Shown here piece by piece: positions 21,655-36,280 of a DNA stretch of 64,000 bases (position 1 is its first letter; the number at the start of each line of letters is the position of its first letter). Position numbers and translations under genes: made by a program. The notes under the pieces were generated by a model. The model did no database searches. It was not told where the DNA came from and was given only the letters and a program-made list of their open reading frames with translations. This DNA is from Streptomyces sedi (lineage in GTDB: Bacteria > Actinomycetota > Actinomycetes > Streptomycetales > Streptomycetaceae), in contig NZ_VDGT01000011.1 in NCBI RefSeq assembly GCF_006335015.1, forward strand, positions 62,001-126,000, written 5' to 3'.

Positions 21655-21765
21655 GCACGGACCCGAAGGTGGTTCGGGACCGCGGTGCCGCCGGTGGCCC
21701 GGCGGCCCGCCGGGCGTGGTGCCGGACACGGCAAGCGGAGCACGGGACAGACGGGGAACGGGCTG

Positions 21766-23538
21766 GTGAACGAGGGCGCGCACGTCGACCCACGCCTTTC
21801 GCGGGGCGACGCGAGGGGCCGACTGCTGGGTGGCCGCTACCAGTTGGTGGAGCGGCTCGGGCAGGGCGGGATGGGCACCGTCTGGCGGGCGCGCGACGAG
21901 GTCACCGGCCGGGAGGTCGCGGTCAAGGAGCCGCGGCTGCCCGCCTCCGTCGCACCGGAGCGTCAGCGGCGCGCGTTCGCCCGGATGCGCCGGGAAGCCG
22001 CCGCGGCGGCCAGGATCGGGCACCCCGGGGTGATCACCCTCCACGACCTGGTCTTCGAGGAGGGCCGCCCCTGGCTCGTGATGGAGCTGGTGCGCGGCGG
22101 CTCGCTGGAGGACCTGCTGGACAGGGGCCCGATACCCCGCGCCGAGGCCGCGCGGATCGGTCTCGGCGTGCTGGAGGCGCTGGTCGCCGCGCACGAGGCG
22201 GGGGTGCTGCACCGCGACGTGAAGCCGGGCAACGTGCTGCTCGGCGCCTACGGCCGGGTGGTGTTGACGGACTTCGGGATCGCCGCCGTCGAGGGCGAGC
22301 AGGCGCTGACCGACACGGGGGCGTTCGTCGGCTCGCCCGAGTTCGTCGCGCCCGAGCTGGCGTTGGGCGAGAAGCCGGGGCCCGAGGCCGACCTGTGGTC
22401 GCTCGGCGTGCTGCTGTATCTGGCGACGGAGGGCGTCTCGCCGTTCCGCAGGGAGCAGTTGGCCGCCACCATCCAGGCGGTGATCTCCGCGCCGCCCCGG
22501 CCGCCGGAGCGCGTCGACGACGCCCTCGGCGACCTGATGCTGCGGCTGCTCAGCAAGCGCCCGGGGGCGCGCCCCGAACCGGACGAGATACGCAGGGTGT
22601 TGCGTCGCGAGGCGGCCGGCGCGCCGGGCCCGAAGGCGCCGCCCGGCGTTGCCGCCCGGCTGCGCCGGCTCAGGCTGGGACGGCGCGGCCGTTGGGTGGC
22701 GGGCGGCGCGGTCGCCGCCGCGCTGCTGGCGGCGGCGGTGCTGCTGGTGCCGTGGCCCGGCGAGGACGGCGACACGACGGCGGGCGGCGACGGCGTGGAG
22801 GAGCGCACGGAGTCGGCCGCGGGCGCCGGCGCGGACGAGGGGGAGAACGGGCGCGCGCCGGAGGACGAGGACGAGGAACGCGCCGCCGACGAGGGCTCCG
22901 AGGAGGAGAACGACGGCGGGCAGGACGAGGGCCCCGCGGAACGGGAGCGGGGCGGCGCCGACGAGGGCGCCGACGACCCCTCCGACCCGACGGAGGACTC
23001 GACCGACCCCGGCGACCCGGAGGGACTCGACGACTCAGGACCGCCGCAGGAGGTGGCGCCGCCGGCCCAGTGGGACGCGATCGAAGAGCCGGCCCTGGCC
23101 ATGACGCTGTCGCTGCCGCCCGGCTATGTCCGCGAGCAGAACCCCTCCAGCGAACGGCAGGTGAGCTACCGCTCGCCCGACGGGCGCCACTCGGTCGATC
23201 TCTGGCACCACCCCGGCTTCACGTCCCCGCCGCTGACCGAGGCGGAGCACCAGGTCGCCGCGTACCGTGCCGACGCCAACTACGCGAGCGTCGACGGCGA
23301 GGCCTGGGCCACCGACTTCCAGTCGGGCGGCGACGCGGCGGAGCTGCGGGTCGTCACGACCAGCGCCACCCGGCCGCACGAGGGGCCGGCGGAACGGCGC
23401 TCGCTGCACTTCGGCGGCCCGACGGCCGGCTCGCACTGGCAGGTCCAGGTGACCACGCTCGGCTCGGAGGGCGAGGCCGCGACGGCGGGGGACCGGCTCT
23501 ACACCGGACTCCTCGCGGATTTGGCCTTCCGGCCCTGA
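21766..23538 (+). CDS. Membrane serine/threonine protein kinase (active)
   Basis: A 590-aa PknB-like kinase. The domain (about 22-285) carries GQGGMGTVW, VAVKE, LHRDVKPGN, DFGIAA and APELA, hence a complete catalytic set. A membrane helix (about 308-330, WVAGGAVAAALLAAAVLL) is followed by an acidic Glu/Asp-rich linker and an extracellular domain of about 130 residues (LAMTLSLPPGYVRE) related to those of the two preceding genes. GTG 21766 is preferred to the longer frame at 21685. It is 111 bp after the pseudokinase gene and probably co-transcribed. Confidence 0.92.
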   Translation: MNEGAHVDPRLSRGDARGRLLGGRYQLVERLGQGGMGTVWRARDEVTGREVAVKEPRLPASVAPERQRRAFARMRREAAAAARIGHPGVITLHDLVFEEGRPWLVMELVRGGSLEDLLDRGPIPRAEAARIGLGVLEALVAAHEAGVLHRDVKPGNVLLGAYGRVVLTDFGIAAVEGEQALTDTGAFVGSPEFVAPELALGEKPGPEADLWSLGVLLYLATEGVSPFRREQLAATIQAVISAPPRPPERVDDALGDLMLRLLSKRPGARPEPDEIRRVLRREAAGAPGPKAPPGVAARLRRLRLGRRGRWVAGGAVAAALLAAAVLLVPWPGEDGDTTAGGDGVEERTESAAGAGADEGENGRAPEDEDEERAADEGSEEENDGGQDEGPAERERGGADEGADDPSDPTEDSTDPGDPEGLDDSGPPQEVAPPAQWDAIEEPALAMTLSLPPGYVREQNPSSERQVSYRSPDGRHSVDLWHHPGFTSPPLTEAEHQVAAYRADANYASVDGEAWATDFQSGGDAAELRVVTTSATRPHEGPAERRSLHFGGPTAGSHWQVQVTTLGSEGEAATAGDRLYTGLLADLAFRP

Positions 23539-23559
23539 CGTTTCGCGTGCGCGGCCGGG

Positions 23560-23875
23560 TTGTGGGCAGTTCCCCGCGCCCCTGGTGTGGGCTGGCGTGG
23601 TGGGTTGGGTGCGGGTTCGTGTTCGCGTTTGGCAGGTGGCGGCCTGCTTGGGGGCGCGGGGAACTGCGCGGTGCATTTGTGGCGGGGGTTGGTCGACTAC
23701 GGAGCTTCGTGGGTGGGTGGGGTGTCGGCGTGAGCCCGGTGTGTGGTTGCTCGCGCAGTTCCCCGCGCCCCTGCACTGCCGGTGGGCGGCTTGGGGGCGC
23801 GGGGAACTGCGCGAATGCTGGGTGGCGGGGGTTGGTCGACTACGGAGCTTCGTGGCTGGGTGGGTTGTCGTCCTC
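23560..23875. repeat. Intergenic inverted-repeat block 2
   Basis: It has the same units as the block before groES. Left arms end at 23582 (partly degraded, GGCAGTTCCCCGCGCCCC) and at 23771 (23753-23771, exact). Right arms are at 23651-23669 and 23794-23812. A GGTCGACTACGGAGCTTCGTGG spacer (seen in two pieces: GGTCGACTACGG and AGCTTCGTGG) occurs twice, at about 23690 and 23834. The region lies downstream of the kinase cluster and ends just before the aldehyde dehydrogenase promoter. Confidence 0.85.
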
Positions 23876-23970
23876 GCCCGGCGCGGCGCCGGAAAAGCGC
23901 CAGTGATCGCTGGCAAAAAACTCGTTACCAGTGGGTAGGAATGGCCCACACTCCGACGTACCCTCCCGTT

Positions 23971-25545
23971 ATGACGACAGCGCAGTCCGACGTGAGCGAG
24001 GCCGCCGCCCGTATCGTCACCCCCGCTCTGGTCGAGTCGCTGACCAGCGGAGTGGTGGGCGGTGGGCGCACCGCGTGCCACTGTCCGTTCACCGGGGAGC
24101 GGTTGGCCGAGCTGCCCGAGGCCACCCCGGACGAGGTGGCCGACGCGTTCCGGCGGGCCAGGGCCGCCCAGCCGGCGTGGGCCGGCAGACCCGTCAGGGA
24201 ACGCGCCCGCGTGGCGCTCCGCTTTCACGACCTGCTGCTGCGCCGCCAGTCCGAGGTGCTCGACCTCGTCCAGCTGGAGACCGGCAAGAGCCGGCTCTCG
24301 GCGCACGAGGAGGTGCAGGCGGTGGCGATGGCGGCCCGCCACTACGGCCGCACGGCGCCCGGCAGGCTCGGCGAGCGCCGTCACCTGGGCGCGATACCGC
24401 TGCTCACCCAGGTCAGGGAGGTGCGCCACCCGCACGGCGTGGTGGGCCACATATCGCCGTGGAACTACCCGTTGGAGCTGTCGGCCGGCGACGTGCTGCC
24501 GGCGTTGCTCGCCGGCAACGCCGTCGTCATGAAGCCCGACACGGAGACCGCGCTCACCGCCCTGTGGGCCCGCCGGCTGATGCGCGAGGCGGGGCTGCCC
24601 GAGGACGTGTGGACGGTGGTGCTGGGGGAGGGGCCCGTCGTCGGCCCGGCCGTCGTGGAGCACGCGGACTACGTCACGTTCACCGGGTCGACCCGCACCG
24701 GGCGCGAGGTCGCCCAGCGCGCCGCCGCCCGACTGATCGGTGCCAGCCTGGAGTTGGGGGGCAAGAACGCGCTGCTGGTGCTGCGCGACGCCGATCTGGA
24801 CCGGGCCGCCGAGGGGGCGGTGCGCGCCGCCTTCTCCTCCTCGGGGCAGCTGTGTGTCTCCGTCGAACGGCTGCTGGTCGACGCCTCGGTGGCGGACGAC
24901 TTCCTCGCGCGGTTCGTCGCCCGCGTCGAGGCGATGCGGCTCGGCCCCGCCCTCGACTACGGCACCGACATGGGCAGCCTCTGCTCGGCGGCCCAACTCG
25001 CCGCCGTCACCACCCATGTCGAGGACGCCGTCGCGCGGGGCGCCAAGGTGCTCGCCGGCGGGCGGCACCGCCCGGACCTGGGGCCCTACTTCTACGAGCC
25101 CACCGTGCTGGAGGGGGTCACCCCGGCCATGCGGGTCTGCGCCGAGGAGACCTTCGGCCCCGTCGTCTCGGTCCAGCGCTTCACGGACGAGGAGCAGGCG
25201 GTGGCGATCGCCAACGACACCCCGTTCGGGCTCAACGCCAGCGTCTGGTCGCGCGACTCCCGCCGCGCCGGCCGCCTGGCCCACCGGCTGCGCACCGGCA
25301 CGGTCAACATCAACGAGGGGTACGCCGCCGCCTACGGCAGCGTCGCGGCGCCGATGGGCGGCATGCGCGACTCGGGGCTCGGCCGGCGCCACGGCGCCGA
25401 CGGGCTGCTGAAGTACACCGAGCCGCAGACCGTCGCCCGCCAGCGCCTGCTGCCGCTCGCCCCCTCGCACGGACTGGACGACCGCCGCTACGCCGCGCTG
25501 ATCAGTCGCTCGCTGCGCGCGCTGAAGTCGCTGGGGGTGCGCTGA
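23971..25545 (+). CDS. NAD(P)-dependent (succinate-)semialdehyde dehydrogenase
   Basis: A 524-aa aldehyde dehydrogenase superfamily protein with the N-terminal succinic-semialdehyde-type features (CPFTGERLAELPEAT). Catalytic residues are visible: PWNYP, FTGSTRTG, LELGGKN (general-base Glu) and SSGQLC (nucleophilic Cys near residue 300). The homologue at this position in S. coelicolor is annotated succinate-semialdehyde dehydrogenase; the true substrate is not provable from sequence. ATG 23971 is used; ATG 23941 in the same frame is an alternative, and neither has a clear ribosome site. It overlaps the following GMC gene (TGATG). Confidence 0.9.
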   Translation: MTTAQSDVSEAAARIVTPALVESLTSGVVGGGRTACHCPFTGERLAELPEATPDEVADAFRRARAAQPAWAGRPVRERARVALRFHDLLLRRQSEVLDLVQLETGKSRLSAHEEVQAVAMAARHYGRTAPGRLGERRHLGAIPLLTQVREVRHPHGVVGHISPWNYPLELSAGDVLPALLAGNAVVMKPDTETALTALWARRLMREAGLPEDVWTVVLGEGPVVGPAVVEHADYVTFTGSTRTGREVAQRAAARLIGASLELGGKNALLVLRDADLDRAAEGAVRAAFSSSGQLCVSVERLLVDASVADDFLARFVARVEAMRLGPALDYGTDMGSLCSAAQLAAVTTHVEDAVARGAKVLAGGRHRPDLGPYFYEPTVLEGVTPAMRVCAEETFGPVVSVQRFTDEEQAVAIANDTPFGLNASVWSRDSRRAGRLAHRLRTGTVNINEGYAAAYGSVAAPMGGMRDSGLGRRHGADGLLKYTEPQTVARQRLLPLAPSHGLDDRRYAALISRSLRALKSLGVR

Positions 25546-27431
25546 TGACCGGGGGAACCGGGCGCGAGGAGGACGAACGGGTCGGCGAGGACGGCGCGTT
25601 CGACTACGACGTGGCCGTGGTGGGCTCCGGCTTCGGCGGGGCCGTGGCGGCGCTGCGGCTGAGCGAGAAGGGGTACCGGGTGGTGGTCCTGGAGGCCGGC
25701 CGCCGGTTCACCAGGGAACGGCTGCCGAAGAACTCGTGGCATCTGCGCGACTACCTCTGGGCGCCGAGGCTCGGCCTCTACGGCATCCAGCGCATCCACC
25801 TCCTCAGCAATGTCATGATCCTGGCAGGTGCCGGGGTCGGCGGCGGCTCGCTGAACTACGCCAACACGCTCTATGTGCCGCCCGACGCCTTCTTCGAGGA
25901 CCGCCAGTGGCGCCACATCACCGACTGGCGGCGGGAGTTGACCCCCTACTACGAGCAGGCCAGGCGGATGCTCGGGGTGCGGACCAACCCCACGATGACC
26001 GCGTCCGACCGCCATCTGCGGTGCGCGGCCGAACGGATGGGCGTGGGCGACACGTTCCGGATGGCCCCGGTGGGGGTCTTCTTCGGGGACGGCGGGGACG
26101 CCGACGGCGAGCACCGGGCGGGACCCGGCGAGGAGGTCTCCGACCCGTACTTCGGCGGCGCCGGCCCCTCGCGGCGGGCCTGTCTGGAGTGCGGCGAGTG
26201 CATGACGGGCTGTCGGCACGGCGCCAAGAACACCCTGAACGAGAACTACCTCCATCTCGCCGAGCGCGCCGGCGCCGAGATCCGCCCGCTGACCACCGTC
26301 ACCGAGGTCGCCGAGGCGCCCGAACTCCCCGACGGCGGCGGCCACCTGGTCACCTGCGTGCCGACGAGGGCGGGGGCGCGCGGTCGGCGCAGGCGGCGCA
26401 CCGTGCTGCGCGTGCGCCAGGTGGTCCTCGCGGCCGGCACCTACGGCACCCAGACGCTGCTGCACCGGATGCGCGACGCGGGAACGCTGCCCCGGCTCTC
26501 CGCCCGGCTCGGCACCCTCACCCGCACCAACTCCGAGGCACTGGTCGGCGCCAGCACCATCTCGCGCCGCTACCGCGCCCGGCACGGGGAGGACGCGACC
26601 CTGGACTTCAGCCGGGGCGTGGCGATCACCTCCTCCATCCACCCGGACGAGCACACCCATGTGGAGCCCGTCCGCTACGGCAAGGGCTCCAACGCGATGG
26701 GGTTCCTGTCGATCAAGCAGTTCCGCAGGGGCGGCCGGCTGCCCCGGCTGCTCGCCTACGCCGCGACCAGCCTGCGCCACCCGGTGGTCTTCGTGCTGTC
26801 GCTCTCCAACCGGCGCTGGTCGGAGCGGACCATCATCGGGCTGGTGATGCAGACGCACGACAACTCGCTGACCACCTACCGCAGAACGCGCCGCCCCGGC
26901 CGTGGGCTGCTCACCGCGCGGCAGGGGCACGGCGCGCCCAACCCGGACCACATCCCGGCGGGCGCCGAGGCCGCGCGTCATCTCGCCGACGACATCGGCG
27001 GGTTCGCCGGCACCAACGTGGGCGAGCTGGTCGGTACGCCGCTGACCGCGCACTTCCTCGGCGGCTGCCCGATCGGGGACACCGCCGAGCGCGGGGTGGT
27101 CGACCCCTATCACCGGCTGCACGGCCACCCGGGGATCAGCGTGGTCGACGGCTCGGCCGTCTCGGCCAACCTCGGCGTCAACCCGGCGCTGACCATCACC
27201 GCCCAGGCGGAACGCGCGTTCGCGCTGTGGCCCAACGCGGGCGAGCCGGACGGGCGGCCGGCCCCCGACGAGCCCTACCGTTCGCTGCGCCCGACACCGC
27301 CGCGCCGGCCGGCCGTTCCCGAGTCGGCCTTCGGCGCGCTGCGGCTGCCGGTCGTGCTGCCCGTGCCCGAGGTGCCGCCACCCGCCCCGAGCGGGGACGA
27401 CGACGCGATGCCCGGTGGTCTGGACCAGTGA
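25545..27431 (+). CDS. GMC-type FAD oxidoreductase with a cysteine cluster
   Basis: A 628-aa flavoprotein. The FAD site is DYDVAVVGSGFGGAVAALRL at residues 20-39, with GAGVGGGSLNYAN and the C-terminal GMC signature HFLGGCPIG...GVNPALTITA. A CLECGECMTGCRHGAKNT motif near residue 212 (C-x2-C-x3-C) occurs in a subfamily of these oxidoreductases and may bind an Fe-S cluster or be structural. The distant relatives include cholesterol and choline oxidases; substrate unknown. Start-stop overlap with the aldehyde dehydrogenase suggests alcohol then aldehyde oxidation in one pathway. A terminator hairpin follows. Confidence 0.9.
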   Translation: MTGGTGREEDERVGEDGAFDYDVAVVGSGFGGAVAALRLSEKGYRVVVLEAGRRFTRERLPKNSWHLRDYLWAPRLGLYGIQRIHLLSNVMILAGAGVGGGSLNYANTLYVPPDAFFEDRQWRHITDWRRELTPYYEQARRMLGVRTNPTMTASDRHLRCAAERMGVGDTFRMAPVGVFFGDGGDADGEHRAGPGEEVSDPYFGGAGPSRRACLECGECMTGCRHGAKNTLNENYLHLAERAGAEIRPLTTVTEVAEAPELPDGGGHLVTCVPTRAGARGRRRRRTVLRVRQVVLAAGTYGTQTLLHRMRDAGTLPRLSARLGTLTRTNSEALVGASTISRRYRARHGEDATLDFSRGVAITSSIHPDEHTHVEPVRYGKGSNAMGFLSIKQFRRGGRLPRLLAYAATSLRHPVVFVLSLSNRRWSERTIIGLVMQTHDNSLTTYRRTRRPGRGLLTARQGHGAPNPDHIPAGAEAARHLADDIGGFAGTNVGELVGTPLTAHFLGGCPIGDTAERGVVDPYHRLHGHPGISVVDGSAVSANLGVNPALTITAQAERAFALWPNAGEPDGRPAPDEPYRSLRPTPPRRPAVPESAFGALRLPVVLPVPEVPPPAPSGDDDAMPGGLDQ

Positions 27432-27480
27432 AGGGCGGGGTGTGGCGCCCGGGACCCGCGGCGACATTCCGGGCAAACGA

Positions 27481-27516
27481 AGAGGCCCGCTCGACGGGGG
27501 AATGGAGCGGGCCTCT
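27481..27516 (+). terminator. Terminator after the GMC oxidoreductase gene
   Basis: Perfect 12-bp arms AGAGGCCCGCTC (27481-27492) and GAGCGGGCCTCT (27505-27516) with a 12-nt loop, 50 bp downstream of the stop codon. Confidence 0.85.
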
Positions 27517-28103
27517 CCGTTCATGATGGCACAGCCGGTAAACGGCTGTACATGTGCTGAGACCGTTGAATCACGTGGAAGGTTGTTCGCCGTTCGGTCA
27601 CGAAAGGGACACGGACCTTCAGTCGGGCCGAGAACACCACCCCCGGGGAGAGTCCCGGGGACCCCGGCCGTCGACCGAGGCCCCCGGGTCAGCACGGCGA
27701 CAGGGCGGCGCCTGTGCTGGGAGCGGCACCCGGGGGGTAGGCGCCGCTTTTCGTTGGTCGAACCACTGGAGGGGGGTGCGCCGTGGCTCGCCAACGTCCT
27801 TGGCCCCGCTCGCGTGCGTCGCCTCACGCGGGAGACGGGGGCGCTGCCCGCGAAGCCGGGGGCGGCCGGTCCTCGGCGTCCCGAGAACCGACCGTGGGGC
27901 GTGACCGGCCTGCTGTCCCCTGCTGCCCGGCCACCGCACCGGAGCGAGGTCCCACGGCGCGTGGACCTCGCCACACCGCGAGGACCACAGCGCCTCATCG
28001 CCCCGGGGACACCACCTTCAACGAAGCCCCGCGCGGGCGGTCACGCTCCGTACGGGTGACGCGTCGTGCCCCGGTTCGGCCGGCGTCGCGCGGCGCCGGC
28101 GGG
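27517..28103. other. Gene-poor region between converging genes, hairpin-rich
   Basis: About 590 bp with no convincing gene. It opens with a small hairpin ACAGCCG-GTAAA-CGGCTGT (27531-27549), then less GC-rich sequence to about 27620, a CCCCGGG/CCCGGGG hairpin near 27645-27665, and GGCGCC-bounded structures near 27700-27750. Open frames exist on both strands (for example from GTG 27783 after a GGAGGGGGG). Their third-position bias is weaker than in the neighbouring genes, and that frame runs antisense through the chorismate mutase gene. A structured RNA is possible but not shown. Confidence 0.5.
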
Positions 28104-28430
28104 TCAGACGCGGCCCCGGCAGAGCTCCAGCAGCGTCATCGCCAACGCGGTGCCCGGCTGGCCCAACTCCGCGTGCCAGCGGCGCAGTACCTCGTTCTCC
28201 CGCGCCAGGTCGGTCCGCCGGCCGCCGCGCGCCATCCGGATGTGCTGCACGCCCTCGGAGAGCGCCATGCGCCGGCGGAGAAGGCGCACGATCTCCTCGT
28301 CCAGCGCGTCGATGTCCGCGCGCGCCCGCGCGATCGCCGCCTCGGGGTCGGCGTCGGGGCCCTCGGGGGCGGAACCCCCGGGATCGGCGGCGGCCCGGGG
28401 CGGGGTGGTGGTCGTTGTCTGAGTCGTCAT
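28104..28430 (-). CDS. Chorismate mutase (AroQ class)
   Basis: A 108-aa monofunctional chorismate mutase that rearranges chorismate to prephenate, the branch point to Phe and Tyr. An N-terminal low-complexity segment of about 30 residues (Thr-rich) precedes the helical AroQ core: ARADIDALDEEIVRLLRRRM, SEGVQHIRM and DLARENEVLRRW. ATG 28430 follows CCAGGGAG. No secretion signal is present, so the enzyme is cytoplasmic. A leader peptide with Phe and Tyr codons and an attenuator-like hairpin precede it (separate entries), fitting control by aromatic amino-acid supply. Confidence 0.9.
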   Translation of the reverse strand: MTTQTTTTTPPRAAADPGGSAPEGPDADPEAAIARARADIDALDEEIVRLLRRRMALSEGVQHIRMARGGRRTDLARENEVLRRWHAELGQPGTALAMTLLELCRGRV

Positions 28431-28497
28431 GATCCGGTTCTCCCTGGAACTGTCCCCCGACGCCCGGTGGCCGGAGCCTCCGGCCCGCGAACGCGAC

Positions 28498-28533
28498 GAC
28501 GCCCCGGGCCGGTTGATCCGGGCCCGGGGCGTC
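28498..28533 (-). terminator. Attenuator-like hairpin upstream of chorismate mutase
   Basis: Thirteen perfectly paired bases, GACGCCCCGGGCC (28498-28510) with GGCCCGGGGCGTC (28521-28533), and a 10-nt loop. It lies 15 bp after the leader-peptide stop codon on the minus strand and about 65 nt before the chorismate mutase start. There is no following U run, which is usual for actinomycete hairpins. The minus-strand 5' arm contains CCGGGCC, which can pair instead with GGCCCGG inside the leader ORF. Confidence 0.75.
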
Positions 28534-28548
28534 GGGGAGTCTTCACTG

Positions 28549-28629
28549 TCAGTGCCGCGTGCGACACTCCCCATGACGGCCGGCCGGGCCGGTGCCATAG
28601 GTGAAGAAGATGTGTCGCGGCTGTGCCAT
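28549..28629 (-). CDS. Putative Phe/Tyr attenuator leader peptide for chorismate mutase
   Basis: A 26-codon frame on the minus strand begins [14 protein letters not shown] and ends 15 bp before the attenuator-like hairpin. Codons 8-11 are Phe-Phe-Thr-Tyr, analogous in idea to the pheL leader upstream of enterobacterial pheA and the trp leaders known in Streptomyces. The ATG lies 7 nt after the -10 element, so the mRNA would be leaderless, a common mode in this genus. It is too short for ordinary gene calling. The role is inferred from position, content and structure; no homologue comparison was possible here. Confidence 0.7.
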
Positions 28630-28636
28630 GCGTCCG

Positions 28637-28665
28637 AGTATGCCACCGCACGGTGCCCACCCCAA
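28637..28665 (-). promoter_or_regulatory. Promoter of the leader peptide-chorismate mutase unit
   Basis: On the minus strand TTGGGG (complement of 28660-28665), a 17-nt spacer and CATACT (complement of 28637-28642) form a housekeeping-type promoter. The predicted start coincides with the ATG of the leader peptide. Confidence 0.7.
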
Positions 28666-28830
28666 GGGGGCCGCCGCCCCGGCGGCCGGCCGGCGCCCGC
28701 CCCGTGGACGCCAGGACCGCGGGCCCCGCGCCGCCGGTAGACTCGGGCCACATCCCCGCACCGCGCGCCCGCGCGGCGACCACCTCGCCGCCGCCCGAAC
28801 GTCGGCACCCCGCACCGTTCCCACCCTTCC

Positions 28831-28902
28831 GCATCACCGGCACCACTCGCATCACCGGCACTACTCGCATCACCGGCACTACTCGCAGCACCCGCACCAC
28901 TC
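28831..28902 (+). repeat. 18-bp tandem repeat upstream of guaA
   Basis: Four head-to-tail copies of an 18-bp unit close to GCATCACCGGCACTACTC occupy 28831-28848, 28849-28866, 28867-28884 and 28885-28902, with a fragment of a fifth. Copies 2 and 3 are identical. The array lies 53 bp before the guaA start, in the region expected to hold its promoter or leader. Confidence 0.9.
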
Positions 28903-28954
28903 GCACCAACTCCGCCGACAGGCAGCAGGCCGGGTAGGCACGAAAGGCAGTTCT

Positions 28955-30550
28955 GTGGCATCCGTGGCAACCGTGGCAGAGACGGCCCCCCAGGACACGG
29001 TCCTCGTCGTCGACTTCGGCGCGCAGTACGCCCAGCTCATCGCCCGCAGGGTCAGGGAGGCCCGGGTCTACAGCGAGATCGTCCCCTCCACCACCCCCGT
29101 GGACGAGATCCTGGCCCGGCGCCCCAGCGCGATCATCCTCTCCGGCGGCCCCTCGTCCGTCTACGCCGAGGAGGCCCCCGGCCTGGACCCGGCGATCTTC
29201 GAGGCGGGCGTCCCCGTCTTCGGGATGTGCTACGGCTTCCAGCTGATGGCCCAGGCCCTCGGCGGCACGGTCGACAACACCGGCGCCCGCGAGTACGGAC
29301 GCACCCAGCTGTCGGTGACCCGCTCCGGCTCCACCCTCTTCGAGGGGACGCCCGACGAGCAGCAGGTCTGGATGTCGCACGGCGACGCCTGCTCGGCCGC
29401 GCCCGAGGGCTTCCTGGTGACGGCCGCGACGGACACCGTTCCCGTCGCCGCGTTCGAGAACGACGAGCGCCGGCTCTACGGCGTCCAGCACCACCCCGAG
29501 GTGCTGCACTCCACCCACGGCCAGCAGGTGCTGGAGCACTTCCTCTACCGGGGCGCCGGGATCAGCCCGAGCTGGACGACCGGCTCCATCGTCGAGGAGC
29601 AGGTCGCGGCGATCCGCGCCCAGATCGGCTCGAAGCGCGCCATCTGCGCGCTCTCCGGCGGCGTCGACTCCGCGGTCGCCGCCGCACTGGTCAACCGCGC
29701 CGTCGGCGAGCAGCTCACCTGCGTCTACGTCGACCACGGGCTGATGCGCAAGGGCGAGACCGAGCAGGTCGAGAAGGACTTCGTCGCCGCGACCGGCGCG
29801 AAGCTGCGGCTGGTCGACGCCTCCGAGCGCTTCCTCGACGCGCTGGCCGGGGTCTCCGACCCCGAGACCAAGCGGAAGATCATCGGCCGCGAGTTCATCC
29901 GGGTCTTCGAGCAGGCCCAGGCCGAGCTCGTCGCCGAGGCCGGCGCCGCCGGCGAGGACGTCGCCTTCCTCGTCCAGGGCACCCTCTACCCCGACGTCGT
30001 CGAGTCCGGCGGCGGGACGGGCACCGCCAACATCAAGTCCCACCACAACGTGGGGGGCCTCCCCGAGGACATCGAGTTCCAACTGGTCGAGCCGTTGCGG
30101 CAGTTGTTCAAGGACGAGGTCCGCATGGTCGGCCAGGAGCTGGGCCTGCCCGAGGAGATCGTCCACCGCCAGCCGTTCCCCGGCCCCGGCCTCGGCATCC
30201 GCATCATCGGCGAGGTCACGCGGGACCGACTCGACCTGCTGCGCGAGGCCGACGCCATCGTCCGCGAGGAGCTGACGGCCGCCGGCCTCGACCGCGACAT
30301 CTGGCAGTGCCCCGTCGTCCTCCTCGCCGACGTCCGCAGCGTCGGCGTCCAGGGCGACGGCCGCACCTACGGCCACCCGATCGTGCTGCGCCCCGTCAGC
30401 TCCGAGGACGCCATGACGGCCGACTGGTCCCGCCTCCCGTACGACCTGCTGGCCCGCGTCTCCAACCGCATCACCAACGAGGTCCGCGACGTCAACCGCG
30501 TCACCCTGGACATCACGAGCAAGCCGCCGGGCACCATCGAGTGGGAGTGA
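28955..30550 (+). CDS. guaA: GMP synthase (glutamine-hydrolysing)
   Basis: Converts XMP to GMP with glutamine and ATP. The 531-aa protein has the N-terminal class I amidotransferase domain ([18 protein letters not shown], nucleophile in [13 protein letters not shown]) and the ATP pyrophosphatase domain (ALSGGVDSA, residues about 225-233). The C-terminal dimerisation domain carries [13 protein letters not shown] and ends in GTIEWE. GTG 28955 was chosen with AAAGG 7 nt upstream; further in-frame GTGs follow at 28964 and 28973. It is the third guanine-nucleotide gene in the window after guaB and guaB3. Confidence 0.97.
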
Positions 30551-30646
30551 ACGGCGGGACGGGCGGCTCCGGATCGGTTCCGTCAACCTGAGCCGTTTCG
30601 CCCCGAGATCGACCGGATGTGACCGTCGGCGACCTCAGGGGGCCGC

Positions 30647-31672
30647 TCAGGGGCGGACGACGGACTGGATCTCGTTGACCTGGACCTCGTGGGTGGTGGC
30701 GAAGGTGGCGTCCGGGAGGGTGCCGCCGGTGTCGCCCGTGCCCTCCCAGGTGATGGACCACGTGATGCTGGCGGTCAACGGGTAGTTCCCGCCGCCGTGG
30801 GTCGCGCGCAGATAGGTGAGGCCGCAGGGCGGAACGGCGTCCTCGTCGCCGCCGTAGGGCGCGCCGATCGACCCGTCCCCGTTGATCGGGCAACTCCCCG
30901 ACGCGGGACGGGTCTCGGCGTCCGCCGTGCCCGGTTCGACGGTGAGCGCCGTCGGCGTCGCGGTGGTGGTGGCCGAGATGCCCCAACTCTCCAACGACGC
31001 GGTCACGGCCACCGGGTCGTACTCCCCGCTCTCCGCCCAGATCCAGGTCGGCAGGTTGACGACCTGTCCGTCGAGGTCGGCGGGGCTGAAGGAGACCTCG
31101 GTCTCCGGCACGCGGATCCGTTCGTACGCCAACTCCGCGAGGACGGAAGGGGACAGCGCGTTCTCGACGTCCGGGACGACGCCGGTCTCCGCCCAGAAGG
31201 GGATCTCGGTGCAGGACATGCGTTCCAGGACATCGGGTTCCGAGGGATTCTCGACGGCCCCCCACCACATGCCCTCGTCCGCCTCCTCGGCGTTGAAGTC
31301 GGTGTAGGGGTCGCCACCGTCGTAGTGGTTCCACATCCAGCCGATGGCCGCCGCCGCGTGGCCCGACTGGCCGTCGGCGGTCCATCCGGTCTCGGCGGTC
31401 ACGCGTAACTCCCCGGGGGTCCACCGCGGGGCATACCAGCACGGGGGTGGGGACCAGTTCCGTGCGGTCGTCGTGAGCCGACCACCTGAGCCGTTGCCGC
31501 TCTCGTCGAAGGCCACCTCTTCGGCCGCCGCGTGCGCGGCGACCTCGCCGCCCTCCTGGCTGCCCCCGATCTCACGGTCGGGCGGCGCGGACAGGGCGGG
31601 CGCCGCACACAGGAGCACAAGGCCGACCGCGGCGACGGGGGGGACGTGGTGTCGAGCCCTCAGCCGGCGCAC
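30647..31672 (-). CDS. Secreted protein of unknown function, 341 aa
   Basis: GTG 31672 follows GGAGGGAG by about 8 nt and gives a textbook signal peptide (MRRLRARHH..., AVGLVLLCAAPALSA). The mature part is Trp-rich (NWSPPPCWYAPRWTPGEL, MWWGAVENP) with several cysteines and a C-terminal Thr-rich beta-type region (NYPLTASITWSITWEGTGDTGG). I recognise the type from Streptomyces genomes, where such proteins are called hypothetical. The start codon lies inside the end of the preceding lipoprotein gene (13-nt overlap), so the two are translated together and probably form a surface pair. Confidence 0.85.
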   Translation of the reverse strand: MRRLRARHHVPPVAAVGLVLLCAAPALSAPPDREIGGSQEGGEVAAHAAAEEVAFDESGNGSGGRLTTTARNWSPPPCWYAPRWTPGELRVTAETGWTADGQSGHAAAAIGWMWNHYDGGDPYTDFNAEEADEGMWWGAVENPSEPDVLERMSCTEIPFWAETGVVPDVENALSPSVLAELAYERIRVPETEVSFSPADLDGQVVNLPTWIWAESGEYDPVAVTASLESWGISATTTATPTALTVEPGTADAETRPASGSCPINGDGSIGAPYGGDEDAVPPCGLTYLRATHGGGNYPLTASITWSITWEGTGDTGGTLPDATFATTHEVQVNEIQSVVRP

Positions 31673-32334
31673 TGCGGCGCGTCTCCCTCCACGGTGACGC
31701 TGCGCGCCTGCCAGAAGCCCTCGACCCCGGGGGCCGGGGACATGCTGACGGTGTAGTGGTAGACGGAGGTCTCGTTCTGTTCTTCGTCGGGGACGACCTC
31801 CCCGGATTCCACGTACTTGCCGACCAACTCCGATCCGTCGTTGCAGAACTCGACGACCACCAGCTCCTCGTTGGCCGGGTTGGGGGCGGTGGTGGCCTGG
31901 TAGTACCGGTCGGTGCCGTACATCGTCCAGCCGCCGTCGATCCACAACTCCGTCTGCGTGCGCGCGTACTCCGCCGCCTGTTCCACCCCGTAACCGTTGT
32001 ACGCGTCCGGGTCCTGGGCCACCACGCTGGCGGCGATCGCGCGGAGGTACTCGCCCGCGCCGTGGAGGGCCGCCGCCTCGTTCGGGTCCTCGGGGGTCTC
32101 CCAGTCGAAGACCAGTTCCACGTCGTCCGGGAGCGGGATCTCCGAGGCGTCGGGGTCCGCCTCGTGGTCCCGGGCGTCGTCCTCGGCGGCGTCTGTGTCC
32201 TCCGCCGGGGTCTCCTCGTCGACGCCGGCGATCGGGTCGTCCGCGGAGTCGTCGGAGTCGCCGCCGCAGGCGGTGAGGGCGAGGAGCAGGGCCGTGGTGA
32301 GGGCCGTGGTGGTGGCCAGGCGGTGGCGGAGCAC
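31660..32334 (-). CDS. Putative lipoprotein, 224 aa, unknown function
   Basis: GTG 32334 follows AAGGGGA. The N-terminus is a lipoprotein signal with lipobox LTAC (LLLALTACGGDSDD), followed by an acidic Asp/Glu-rich linker of about 40 residues. The compact domain after it starts EIPLPDDVELVFDWETPED and has a cysteine pair (EFCNDG, DAPQCAG). No known family was recognised. It overlaps the secreted-protein gene downstream. Confidence 0.85.
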   Translation of the reverse strand: MLRHRLATTTALTTALLLALTACGGDSDDSADDPIAGVDEETPAEDTDAAEDDARDHEADPDASEIPLPDDVELVFDWETPEDPNEAAALHGAGEYLRAIAASVVAQDPDAYNGYGVEQAAEYARTQTELWIDGGWTMYGTDRYYQATTAPNPANEELVVVEFCNDGSELVGKYVESGEVVPDEEQNETSVYHYTVSMSPAPGVEGFWQARSVTVEGDAPQCAG

Positions 32335-32399
32335 GGGAAGTCCCCTTCGCTTACACGGTGTTGACGGGCGATGACACCGTAGCAGCGGGGCAGCGTCGT

Positions 32400-32747
32400 T
32401 CAGGAGGGTTCCCCGGGGCGGTGGGAGCGGCGGTGGGCGAGGCCGGTGCGGGCGAGGAGGCCGCCGACCATGGCGAAGAGGCTGACGGCGCTCGCCGCGT
32501 AGATCATCGTGAAGACGCGGGAGAGCGCGGTGGTGGGCGCCAGGTCGCCGTAGCCGATGGTCAGGCCCGTGGTCACCGAGAAGTACAGCGACTCCAGCAC
32601 CGACCAGTGCTCGTGCACCCGGTAGAAGAGCGTCCCGGTGGCCAGGACGAGCAGCAGGGAGAGCGCGGCGCCGCGGAACGAGGGGGAGCGCCACGCCTCT
32701 CGTCCCGCGGTGACCAGCGCCGCGGCGAGGACCACGAATCCGAACAT
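32400..32747 (-). CDS. Two-helix potassium channel-like protein
   Basis: A 115-aa membrane protein with two transmembrane helices flanking a pore loop that has the K+ selectivity filter signature (TTGLTIGYGDLAPTT). It fits the ion-channel-2 family of minimal K+ channel pore units, without RCK or cyclic-nucleotide domains. An extra N-terminal hydrophobic stretch (FGFVVLAAALVTA) may form a third helix. It stands alone between the two-component system and the lipoprotein pair on the same strand. Confidence 0.85.
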   Translation of the reverse strand: MFGFVVLAAALVTAGREAWRSPSFRGAALSLLLVLATGTLFYRVHEHWSVLESLYFSVTTGLTIGYGDLAPTTALSRVFTMIYAASAVSLFAMVGGLLARTGLAHRRSHRPGEPS

Positions 32748-32792
32748 TCCCCCAGTCTTGGCCAGCGGGGGCGCCGGCCGGGGGAGCGACGC

Positions 32793-33473
32793 TCAGACCA
32801 GTCGGCGCGCGGTCGCCCAGCGGGTGAGCTCGTGGCGGTTGGAGAGCTGGAGCTTGCGGAGCACGGCCGAGACATGGCTCTCGACCGTCTTCACCGAGAT
32901 GAACAGCTCCTTGCCGACCTCCTTGTACGCGTAGCCGCGGGCGATCAGCCGCAGCACCTCGCGTTCTCGCTGCGTCAGCCGGTCCATGTCCTCGTCGACC
33001 GGCGGGGCCTCGGACGAGGCGAACGCGTCCAGCACGAAGCCCGCGAGCCGCGGCGAGAAGACCGCGTCGCCGTCCGCGACGCGGAAGATCGCGTCGACCA
33101 GGTCGGTCCCGGTGATCGTCTTGGTGACGTACCCGCGCGCCCCGCCCCGGATGACACCGATGACGTCCTCCGCCGCGTCGGAGACGGAGAGCGCGAGGAA
33201 ACGGACGGTGGCGCCCGACGCGCTCACCAGCTCCGAGCCGCGGCGCAGCACCTCGACGCCGCCGCCGCCCGGCAGGTGCACGTCCAGCAGCACCACGTCG
33301 GGCGCCGCCGCCTTGATCACGGTGATGGCCTGGTCGACGTCGCCGGCCTCGCCGACCACCTCGACGCCGGTCTCGTCCGTGCGGCCGATCTCGGCCTGCA
33401 CCCCCGCGCGGAACATGCGGTGGTCGTCGACCAGCACCACCCGGGCGCGTCGTTCCTCCGGTGACCGGTTCAT
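32793..33473 (-). CDS. NarL/LuxR-family response regulator
   Basis: A 226-aa two-component regulator. The receiver domain has D16/D17, phosphorylation site D64 (VVLLDVHLPG) and K in YVTKT. The LuxR-type helix-turn-helix is LTQREREVLRLIARGYAYKEVG. Its ATG overlaps the stop of the sensor kinase gene (ATGA), so the pair is translationally coupled. By context (PspC-bearing kinase and LiaF-like neighbour) it most likely answers cell-envelope stress. Confidence 0.93.
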   Translation of the reverse strand: MNRSPEERRARVVLVDDHRMFRAGVQAEIGRTDETGVEVVGEAGDVDQAITVIKAAAPDVVLLDVHLPGGGGVEVLRRGSELVSASGATVRFLALSVSDAAEDVIGVIRGGARGYVTKTITGTDLVDAIFRVADGDAVFSPRLAGFVLDAFASSEAPPVDEDMDRLTQREREVLRLIARGYAYKEVGKELFISVKTVESHVSAVLRKLQLSNRHELTRWATARRLV

Positions 33474-34747
33474 TGGGATCGCTCCATCGTCAGCTCCACC
33501 TCTGTGCCCTCGCCTGGTGTGGACCGTACCCGGGCGGTGCCGCCGTGGCGCCGCATCCGGCCCACGATGGACTCGCGCACGCCCATCCGGTCGGCCGGCA
33601 CCGAGTCCTGGTCGAAGCCCGGGCCCCGGTCGCGCACCGAGACGAAGACCGTGCGACCCTCGACCTCGGCGAACACCCGGATGGGCCCGCCCTCCCCACC
33701 GTACTTGGCCGCGTTGACCATGGCCTCACGTGCCGCCTGGAGTGTGGCGCCCAGCGGTTCGTCGAGGGGGCAGTCGCCGACGCAGACCACCTCGATCTGC
33801 ACCCCGTGGTGGTCCTCGACGGAGGCGGCGGTGGCGCGCACCGCCTCGGCGAGGGTCTTCGGCTCGTCGTCCTCCTCCGCCGGCTGGCCGTCGACGGACT
33901 CGGCGGAACGGTAGAGCCAGGCGCGGAGTTCGCGTTCCTGGGCGCGGGCGAGGCGGGCGACCTCCCGGCCGTTCTCGGCGTTGCGCTGGATCAACGTCAG
34001 GGTGTGCAGCACCGAGTCGTGGACGTGGGCGGCGACCTCGGCGCGTTCCTGGGCGCGGATGCGCATGGTGCGCTCCTCGGAGAGGTCCTGCACGATCCGC
34101 ACCAGGTAGGGGCCGGCGAGCAGCGCGATGCCGACGACCACGGCGACGGAGGCCTGGAGCGCGACGCGGAGGCTCTCGGTGGCCGCGCCGCCCTGGCCCA
34201 CCACGAAGACGGAGACGCCAGCGCCGACGAGTACCGCGCCGGCCGCGCTGCGCAGCAGCGGCAGCCAGCGGCTTCTGCGGGTGGCCTCGGCCCAGGCGGC
34301 GCGGCGCGAGTTGTCGGCCTGCCGCCAGACGACGGCGGCGCCGACGCCGATGATCAGCAGCGGCCACAGGTAGCGGCCGGAGATGGGGTACTGGATGCTG
34401 CCGGCGAACGCGAAGAGCGCGACGGCCAGCACCAGGAACGCGACCAGCGACTCCTTGCCGGGCTTGCGCCAGTTCATCCTGCGGCGCGCGGGCGCGGCGG
34501 GGCTGGTCTCGGGCGCGCCGAGCGGCACCACGAACCAGAAGACCGCGTAGAGCAGCACGCCCAGTCCGTTGGAGGAGAGGAGCACCAGCAGGATCACCCG
34601 GACCCAGGAGACCGGGACACCCAGGTGCCCGGCCAGGCCCTGGGCGACCCCGCCCAACCAGCGTCCGTCCGCGCTGCGGTAGAGCTTGCGGACCGGTGCC
34701 TCGTCCCCGGCGCTCGCGTAGGGCGTGGCCATCGTCATGCCCCGCAT
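33470..34747 (-). CDS. PspC-domain sensor histidine kinase (LiaS/DesK-like)
   Basis: The start is uncertain within a run MTMRGMTMATPYASAG (GTG 34753 or ATGs shortly after); ATG at 34747 is used, giving 425 aa. An N-terminal PspC domain (KLYRSADGRWLGGVAQGLAGHLG) with one helix is followed by four or so more membrane helices. Then come the HisKA_3 phospho-acceptor box (AHVHDSVLHTLTLIQ) and a HATPase_c domain (EAMVNAAKYGG, RDRGPGFD, ESIVGRMRRHGGTA). Class IIc kinases of this build pair with NarL-type regulators, as here. It is divergent from the PspC/LiaF-like gene. Confidence 0.92.
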   Translation of the reverse strand: MRGMTMATPYASAGDEAPVRKLYRSADGRWLGGVAQGLAGHLGVPVSWVRVILLVLLSSNGLGVLLYAVFWFVVPLGAPETSPAAPARRRMNWRKPGKESLVAFLVLAVALFAFAGSIQYPISGRYLWPLLIIGVGAAVVWRQADNSRRAAWAEATRRSRWLPLLRSAAGAVLVGAGVSVFVVGQGGAATESLRVALQASVAVVVGIALLAGPYLVRIVQDLSEERTMRIRAQERAEVAAHVHDSVLHTLTLIQRNAENGREVARLARAQERELRAWLYRSAESVDGQPAEEDDEPKTLAEAVRATAASVEDHHGVQIEVVCVGDCPLDEPLGATLQAAREAMVNAAKYGGEGGPIRVFAEVEGRTVFVSVRDRGPGFDQDSVPADRMGVRESIVGRMRRHGGTARVRSTPGEGTEVELTMERSQ

Positions 34748-34861
34748 CGTCACACGAGCGGTCGGCGCCGCACATCAGGGGTGCCCCGGAAGGGGGCGTC
34801 AGGGGCGTTCTCCGGGGCTCCCCCGATTCCGTCGTGCCACGGGCGGGGAGAGGATGGCCCC

Positions 34862-36280
34862 ATGACCGACGACCGCACGTGGCCCGGGGCCGGCACCGGG
34901 TCGACCTCCACGGCGACGCCGCCGGCGGCGCCCGGCGACGCGCCGTTGCGCCGTTCCCGCAAGCACAAGGTGATCGGCGGTGTGTGCGGAGGTTTCGGCC
35001 GGCACTACCGGATGGATCCGGTGATCTTCCGGGTGTCGCTCCTGGTGCTGTCGGTGCTGGGCGGGCTGGGGCTCGTCGCCTACGGCGTCGCGTGGCTGGT
35101 CACACCGTTCGACGGCGAGGAGGAGAACGAGGGGCGGCGGCTGCTCTCCGGCCGGGTCGAGGGCCCGGGGCTGACAGCGCTGCTCTTCGTGGTCGCCGGG
35201 TGCGGGCTGATGCTGGCGTCGCTGGGGGGCAGCAGGACGACGACGTGGTTCTCGCTTGAGGTGCTGGCCGCGTTGGCGGCTGCCGCCTACTGGGCGAAGT
35301 ACCGGCGCGGCACCGAGCGGGAGACGACGCCGGAGGGGACGCCGGCGCACCCCAAGCTGGCGCAGGTGGCGGCCGAGGCGCCGCCGGAGGCGCGGCGACC
35401 GCCGGCGCCCAGCGGGCCCTCGTGGTGGCGGGGGAACGCGGGCCAGGCCAGCTATCTGTGGGGCCCCGAGCAGGCGGCGCCCGGCGACTACGCGCACGCG
35501 GGCGCCCCGCCGGTCGGGCGCCCGCCGGCGCCGGGATGGCCGGGCGGCCCGGGCGGGCCGCCGCTGCCGCCACCGCCGCCGCGCGAGCTGCCGCTGAGCG
35601 GGTTGGTCTTCCTGGGGGCTGTGGTCGCGTTCGGCGTCGGCGTCGCCGCGTCGTGGACCAGCCAGCCGCTGGGACCCGCGCTGGTCATCGGCTTCTCGGC
35701 GGCGCTGACGGTCTTCGCCGTCGGGCTGGTGGTCAGCGCGTTCCGGGGGCGGCTCGGGGCGGGCACCATCACGTCGGTGCTGCTGACGGGCGGGATGCTG
35801 GCGGGTGCCTCCGTGCTGCCCGACAACATCACCACCAGCTGGGAGAGCCACGAGTGGCGTCCCGGCGACGCCGAGACGGTCCGTTCTCAGTACGAACTGG
35901 GCAGCGGGCAGGCCGAGTTGGACCTGACGGGGGTGGACCTGGCGGTCGGCGGCGAGCTGGCCACGCAGGTGCGGGCCGGTGCGGGCGAGGTGACCGTGCT
36001 GGTGCCCTACGACGTCGATCTGGAGGTCTCGGTGGACATCGGCGCCGGGGCGTTCACCTACCAGCCGCTGCGCGGCATCGGGGAGAACGACAACCGCGAC
36101 TCCTGGGGCGGCTTCGGGCAGGAGCGGCTCCTGGAGTATCCGGCCGTGCTCGACGCCGCCGAGGAGGCGGAGCGCGAGGCCGCGGGGGAGACGGTGGAGA
36201 ACGCGAGGATCGAGCTGCGGCTGGAGATGGGCATCGGCCACGTCCAGATCCAGCGCGCGGGAGAGGAGCCACGGCCGTGA
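34862..36280 (+). CDS. PspC-domain, LiaF-like membrane protein
   Basis: A 472-aa protein. The N-terminal PspC domain (RSRKHKVIGGVCGGFGRHYRMDP) leads to membrane helices and a Pro/Gly-rich cytoplasmic linker (about residues 170-245). Two to three more helices and a C-terminal beta-rich domain (LDLTGVDLAVGG, VRAGAGEVTVLVPYDVDLEV) resemble the LiaF/VraT cell-wall-stress domain. LiaF proteins inhibit their kinase in the absence of envelope stress. Divergence from the PspC kinase-regulator pair supports a three-part LiaFSR-like system. Confidence 0.88.
   Translation: MTDDRTWPGAGTGSTSTATPPAAPGDAPLRRSRKHKVIGGVCGGFGRHYRMDPVIFRVSLLVLSVLGGLGLVAYGVAWLVTPFDGEEENEGRRLLSGRVEGPGLTALLFVVAGCGLMLASLGGSRTTTWFSLEVLAALAAAAYWAKYRRGTERETTPEGTPAHPKLAQVAAEAPPEARRPPAPSGPSWWRGNAGQASYLWGPEQAAPGDYAHAGAPPVGRPPAPGWPGGPGGPPLPPPPPRELPLSGLVFLGAVVAFGVGVAASWTSQPLGPALVIGFSAALTVFAVGLVVSAFRGRLGAGTITSVLLTGGMLAGASVLPDNITTSWESHEWRPGDAETVRSQYELGSGQAELDLTGVDLAVGGELATQVRAGAGEVTVLVPYDVDLEVSVDIGAGAFTYQPLRGIGENDNRDSWGGFGQERLLEYPAVLDAAEEAEREAAGETVENARIELRLEMGIGHVQIQRAGEEPRP

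Follow-up and report, generated by a model that had tools for sequence, protein, structure and literature searches.

The chorismate mutase gene of Streptomyces sedi is preceded by a short leader reading frame with Phe, Thr and Tyr codons and by two hairpins, an arrangement that we read, with a probability of about 0.8, as a ribosome-mediated attenuator which would control this gene by sensing the charging of Phe tRNA and possibly of Tyr tRNA. We are less sure that the output is transcription termination than that these amino acids are sensed. The leader, its codons, both hairpins and the association with the chorismate mutase gene were compared across genomes and found to be kept; judged from these comparisons, the element is real and conserved and its range is unexpectedly wide. 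An earlier note on this DNA had proposed a Phe/Tyr attenuator, and this reading is supported: the sequence is as stated, the Phe and Tyr codons are kept and both hairpins covary.

The window analysed here is a stretch of 64,000 nt of S. sedi (GCF_006335015.1, contig NZ_VDGT01000011.1, forward positions 62,001-126,000), and all coordinates refer to it. On its minus strand the hexamer TTGGGG (28660-28665), proposed as -35 element, is followed after 17 nt by the -10 element CATACT (28637-28642) and 7 nt downstream by the ATG at 28629 of a leader frame of 26 sense codons (28549-28629), which ends with the TGA at 28551-28549. Hexamers, spacing, start codon, frame and stop codon are all present as the earlier note had described them. 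Of TTGGGG-N17-CATACT, which the earlier note had called a promoter, a -10-like hexamer recurs at 27 of 27 genus loci; TTGGGG is weak and was not passed by the consensus scanner, which at its strict setting reported 0 sigma-70 promoters here and also 0 terminators with a T-run. Because of the spacing between the -10 element and the start codon a leaderless transcript is suggested, and the leader frame is predicted to be of this type.

The control codons TTC TTC ACC TAT are located at 28608-28597. From the Thr and Tyr codons a first hairpin, 1:2, extends over 28571-28602 (ACCTATGGCACCGG / CCGG-c-CGTCATGG); as read in the sequence it overlaps the control codons, as in ribosome-mediated attenuators. 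The candidate antiterminator strand GGCCCGG (28584-28590) is complementary to CCGGGCC (28527-28521) in the 5' arm of a terminator-like hairpin (28497-28534), which was found by inverted-repeat search. This hairpin consists of 14 perfect base pairs (arms 28534-28521 and 28510-28497) with a 10-nt loop, has no T-run and begins 14 nt past the leader stop; a perfect GC hairpin had been claimed correctly, but with 13 bp and at a distance of 15 bp. The layout, in which hairpin 1:2 rises from the control codons and is followed by the terminator-like hairpin, is that of a classical attenuator.

The controlled gene (28104-28430, ATG at 28430) encodes a protein of 108 amino acids that scores 100.1 bits against the NCBIfam equivalog NF005894 (cut-off 73) and lies above the cut-off of TIGR01808, which confirms its earlier naming as a chorismate mutase. 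It resembles the solved intracellular chorismate mutase Rv0948c and is presumably of the AroQ-delta type. By its sequence, the open reading frame on the opposite strand beside the leader reads as guaA; between its start and the leader promoter an 18-bp tandem repeat (CGCATCACCGGCACCACT) occupies 28830-28905 with 4.2 copies and 93% matches. Rfam covariance models, run over 20000-36000, gave no match in the leader region, T-box and other cis-regulatory RNAs included; the lone match at E 1 or better in this interval is at position 34780 on the other strand (E 0.98) and below the cut-off.

A search of 296 genomes of the class with a chorismate mutase protein matched 27 genomes of the genus Streptomyces, the window's own included, and gave no match in the genus genome G563. 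The leader precedes the main chorismate mutase locus in all 27, with F-T-Y-G upstream of the gene in 26 loci and F-S-Y-G in 1. Every one of these loci (27/27) also has an in-frame ATG or GTG with a -10-like hexamer of the form xAxxxT 5-8 nt upstream of it. The sequences ahead of the motif occur in 25 different forms. Two extra chorismate mutase copies, L117 and L118, found in two genus genomes, have no leader.

A larger set of 70 loci from the Streptomyces family, including at least one other genus, was chosen by the DNA pattern TTY-A[CG]C-TAY-GGC together with a perfectly paired stem of 9 bp or more. Such a selection makes the set unfit as proof that Phe and Tyr are invariant; the invariance of Phe, Tyr and Gly and the terminator stem are in part there by construction, and our claims therefore rest on the 27 protein-anchored loci. 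Free of the selection are the ratios TTT/TTC (68/2) and TAT/TAC (68/2), the 59 forms before FTY and the -10 hexamer (70/70), and both sets point the same way. Pattern matches without the stem, duplicates and truncated or N-bearing stretches were left out; among seven pattern matches without the stem, L011, L030, L044 and L053 have the leader and L095, L098 and L112 look unrelated. Two further searches were not used as counts: with E-values up to 1 accepted, a leader-peptide search over the genus matched 234 of 295 genomes, chance matches included, and the DNA pattern TTYACCTAYGGCAMCCGGCC, which fits one sequence variant only, matched 91 of 249 family genomes with at most one mismatch, some of these matches being apparently unrelated TTCACCTACCGC sequences.

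Within Streptomyces, FTYG and much of the C-terminal part of the leader are kept. The loop region CCGGCCCG is mostly kept by way of compensating one-base insertions and deletions that alter the peptide (GTGPSG, GNRPAG, GTRPAG). L044 and L053 keep the RNA, too, but remain in the shifted frame past FTYG. Since peptide and frame change while the RNA is kept, selection acts on the RNA in the loop region and on the amino acids at Phe and Tyr.

The codons themselves are also kept. The Phe codon is TTT in 26 of the 27 genus loci, the window with its TTC being the exception, and the Tyr codon is TAT in all 27. In 27 predicted genes of the window TTT accounts for 8 of 310 Phe codons and TAT for 28 of 267 Tyr codons. 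In a set of 52 loci with the motif, all but one from other families than the window's, 53 of the 73 Phe codons before Tyr are TTT and 30 of the 52 Tyr codons are TAT. Rare, slow codons at the putative sensing site fit attenuation; their invariance may in part be due to the hairpin that begins at the control codons.

All 52 motif-bearing loci and all 70 Streptomyces-family loci fold into a hairpin with 7 or more pairs at the Tyr codon or close to it. Alignment A1 comprises 57 sequences, 42 from the former set and 15 from the latter. Its six outer pairs are standard in 88.3% of cases (69.6% when shuffled) and show two-sided changes at all six positions; the covariation score is 0.531, as compared with 0.209 for shuffled alignments (sd 0.021) and at most 0.138 for slid ones. 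The rows of A1 were selected by the aromatic motif, mostly with Gly next to it, so that construction accounts in part for the G's at the beginning of the 5' arm, but not for the 3' arm. Rows that seem misaligned (e.g. L070, L080, L139, L141, L144) were retained and count against the structure; L161 (an insertion in the hairpin), L137 (an N) and duplicates were excluded. A third hairpin around the leader stop looked conserved by eye, but in 62 sequences its stability does not exceed that of shuffled ones (mean z 0.26), and it was rejected.

The terminator-like hairpin was examined in alignment A3, which holds the 27 genus loci, retrieved solely through the chorismate mutase protein and otherwise unfiltered. 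In it 96.0% of the cells are paired, two-sided changes occur in 5 of 15 pairs, and the covariation score is 0.158 as compared with 0.103 for shuffled (sd 0.008) and at most 0.064 for slid alignments. The stem in the 70-locus set has two-sided changes in 7 of 23 pairs, its pairing being partly by construction. Local hairpins that had been sought in the 27 loci at a few set lengths were left aside. For a true attenuator the earlier note had expected kept Phe/Tyr codons in a drifting peptide together with covarying stems, and this is what the alignments of genus and class gave; lack of conservation of leader or hairpin, which it had set against its own reading, was not found, as the leader is present at 27 of 27 genus loci and the terminator-like hairpin covaries in them.

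A strand past the terminator is able, in Streptomyces, to form base pairs with the 3' arm of this hairpin; in the 27 genus loci the mean z is -1.51 relative to shuffled sequence. An exact 7-mer complement of this arm is present in 9 of the 27 loci, and the covariation score of 0.173 stands against 0.134 for shuffled alignments (sd 0.012) and 0.154 when slid by one position. This pairing is suggestive only; if formed, it could lock a read-through form. The window has a 33-nt inverted repeat (28455-28487 / 28505-28537, 82% complementary) that overlaps both the terminator-like hairpin and the strand past it.

For the range of the leader, 65 chorismate mutase loci from 62 genomes, all outside the window's family, were used with a strict filter: an open reading frame of 7-40 codons starting with ATG or GTG, within at most 450 nt, with a -10-like hexamer 5-8 nt upstream and an adjacent F/Y pair or F[STA]Y. 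It matched 45 of the 65 loci, as opposed to 47 of 6700 first-order simulated sequences (0.7%). On antisense stretches (68) and on stretches further upstream (66) it gave no match; these two sets include loci of the window's family. Strict matches occur in nine families (f4, f12, f14, f18, f21, f31, f35, f37 and f46); examples are MFDQRFFYYGTGSPAAVGRA, MTRSAFFFYGSGRVR and MLSKQRFFYGYRSAVPVV. Eight of the loci missed by the filter were assigned a leader in hindsight, six with FYG[GD]R-RSP but no start that fits the filter and two as Phe-Ile-Tyr and Phe-Pro-Tyr variants. In twelve loci no leader was recognised, namely in three second copies in f18, one locus on a truncated contig, seven in f4 and one in genus g4. 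The seven f4 loci are all loci from three other genera of that family. Genus g4 has 17 loci, of which 14 match the filter and 2 are the Phe-Ile-Tyr and Phe-Pro-Tyr variants. We take genus f4/g4 to be Mycobacterium on the ground that Rv0948c is matched by one of its chorismate mutases with E 1.8e-42.

The peptides of the other families share little except the aromatic residues and usually a Gly. The far-side neighbour gene, inspected by eye at 15 loci, varies among families, so that the leader goes with the chorismate mutase. In a phylum-wide search the window's type of chorismate mutase was found in 13 of 198 genomes, all of f1 and f4. Applied to control genes, for which fewer than all matches were taken and those of the window's genome were included, the strict filter was passed at 1 of 31 prephenate dehydratase loci and 1 of 30 DAHP synthase loci. 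Within the window's own genome it found no such leader at DAHP synthase, PDT, PDH and the second chorismate mutase domain. This second domain (L001, G000:C1:202515-202751) lies inside an open frame of 765 amino acids, has a stronger Pfam score than the window gene and lacks a Phe/Tyr leader. The second chorismate mutase copies L155 (G399) and L157 (G389) of f18 lie beside a prephenate dehydratase match, likewise without leader.

The proposed attenuation would proceed as follows. Transcription would begin at or beside the leader ATG, and the leader would be translated without a Shine-Dalgarno site, the ribosome reaching UUC/UUU-ACC-UAU after about eight codons. With ample charged tRNA it would continue to the stop codon, the GC hairpin would form and transcription of the gene would be cut off. 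When Phe or Tyr is scarce, the ribosome would stall on the slow codons and keep hairpin 1:2 open, whose loop and 3' arm could then base-pair with the terminator's 5' arm and thereby allow transcription of the gene. Leaderless start, stalling, antiterminator and termination are the steps that we infer.

That GGCCCGG acts as a stall-dependent antiterminator is possible as far as pairing is concerned: the best duplex modelled in the window has about -26 kcal/mol. For the leader loop and 3' arm with the terminator 5' arm, 51 distinct Streptomyces-family sequences have a mean of -25.4 kcal/mol, whereas arms taken from other families give -19.2; relative to shuffled leader the z is -1.50. The dependence on stalling did not appear in the folding model for Streptomyces. 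In this model the RNA up to the terminator 5' arm was folded with a fixed ribosome footprint on the Tyr codon or the stop codon, the terminator being chosen automatically by a script that took a doubtful hairpin in a few loci (e.g. L163, L072, L078, L125). Streptomyces loci gave no stall-dependent pairing, with values of 0.69 for free, 0.68 for stalled, 0.60 for stop and 0.55 for shuffled RNA, and stalled exceeded stop in 24 of 70 loci. Family f4 gave stall-dependent pairing (0.77 versus 0.47 at the stop; 13 of 14 loci), as did f31 (2/2), f35 (1/1) and f37 (1/2); none was seen in the seven loci of f12, f14, f21 and f46, and in the 25 loci of f18 the result was reversed (0.11 stalled versus 0.43 at the stop). 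The 2:3 duplex of f4 is no better for cognate (-19.4) than for non-cognate arms (-21.5). As the modelled switch was not seen in Streptomyces and was reversed in f18 and its duplex is not favoured in f4, the switch itself stands as a conjectural part of the mechanism.

Control might be exerted on translation instead, the leader sensing Phe/Tyr charging all the same and stalling opening or closing a hairpin in which the ribosome-binding site of chorismate mutase would be hidden, without termination and perhaps differently from family to family. We consider this rather unlikely. It would account for the lack of a T-run in the window, and 24 of the 28 loci of f18 gave both motif and site, 23 of which (e.g. 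L083, L135, L146) have the Shine-Dalgarno GG in the 3' arm of a predicted hairpin, a hint of translation control in this family, where changes in the arms also look matched by eye; mycobacterial Cys leaders are reported as translation attenuators (PMC13236596). However, the f18 hairpins are no stabler than shuffled sequence (mean z -0.28), the strong hairpin of the window ends about 50 nt ahead of the Shine-Dalgarno site, and in some other families, as at L067, L069 and L078, the GC hairpin has a T-rich tail.

Two further explanations carry far less weight. A functional small protein, whose conservation would explain that of the reading frame, is very improbable: the kept FTYG and C-terminal part in Streptomyces would suit it, but the N-terminus is unconserved with its 25 forms in 27 loci, the C-terminal part changes frame in L044 and L053 while the RNA is kept, rare synonymous codons are maintained, peptides of other families have little in common past the aromatic residues and the usual Gly, and the leader peptide has no NCBIfam match. 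Chance coincidence of a short frame and a GC-rich hairpin has next to no probability. Both are plentiful in high-GC DNA, and the region around the stop codon has no excess stability (mean z 0.26, 62 sequences), but the null rates of 0.7% and 0 are opposed to 45/65 and 27/27, and the reading is refuted because the leader is conserved.

Attenuators of this kind are already known from pheL-pheA and aroR-aroF, and a class-wide family at chorismate mutase was not found in print. The aroR leader of Corynebacterium glutamicum was reportedly described as leaderless by Neshat et al. in 2014. With its Phe-Tyr-Phe codons aroR controls aroF, which encodes DAHP synthase, and, according to PMC11802643, it responds to Phe limitation, Tyr supply being without effect; Tyr sensing may for this reason be absent in the present leader, too. 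Like the present leader, aroR is an actinobacterial Phe/Tyr leader (PMC11802643, PMC8079986). Unlike aroR-aroF, the gene controlled here is chorismate mutase and not DAHP synthase, the DAHP synthase of the window's genome has no such leader, and a leader-like frame occurs at 1 of 30 DAHP synthase loci.

The pheL leader of Escherichia coli controls pheA and responds to the charging of Phe tRNA (PMC11802643), and in both systems the leader stands ahead of a gene with chorismate mutase activity, there as part of CM-PDT. The present leader differs in belonging to another phylum and preceding a stand-alone chorismate mutase. Whereas pheL has a long run of Phe codons, the leader described here combines few control codons, for Phe and Tyr, with a leaderless-type start and a GC hairpin without T-run.

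For Streptomyces lividans TK24, Table 4 of PMC8079986 gives the leaders trpL1, trpL2, leuL1, leuL2, ilvL, alaL, thrL and metL. The present element resembles them in that they are short peptides before amino acid genes, several of them leaderless and some without U-run, and leaderless transcripts are given as 17% of S. lividans transcripts in the same study. None of the eight is for Phe or Tyr and none precedes a chorismate mutase in that table. A comparative survey of actinobacterial attenuators from 2005 saw no conserved RNA structure upstream of the operons for Phe or Tyr (PMC1262725). Because the survey and the S. lividans table show no Phe/Tyr leader, the class-wide leader fills a gap (PMC1262725, PMC8079986). 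The earlier statement that a Phe/Tyr leader before an actinomycete chorismate mutase is not well described agrees with our search, in which no published report of a chorismate mutase or Phe leader or attenuator was found among the matches listed; the search left most subscription papers outside, and a report may exist. Nor did it find a paper on Rv0948c with a transcription start site or on SCO4784, which we take to be the locus tag of the Streptomyces coelicolor chorismate mutase.

Chorismate mutase sets the share of chorismate that goes to Phe and Tyr as against Trp, folates and chorismate-derived antibiotics, and the leader is an engineering handle on aromatic flux that is amenable to simple reporter strains. 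Even odds may be given to the broader view that a Phe/Tyr attenuator on this type of chorismate mutase is ancestral in the class Actinomycetes, Mycobacterium-like genomes included, with a free-drifting leaderless peptide, rare codons and a kept aromatic core and Tyr-codon hairpin, and with an output, termination or hiding of the ribosome site, exchanged between families. If so, the attenuator would be the gene-expression counterpart to allosteric control at the chorismate branch point. The leader family is also a natural data set on the trade-off among rare codons, peptide and RNA structure in attenuators. One of its members, the leader MTRSAYFYGTGFFYEKSPAAVDAV of L161 / L066 (G349, family f31), has a second FFY in the apical part of the hairpin.
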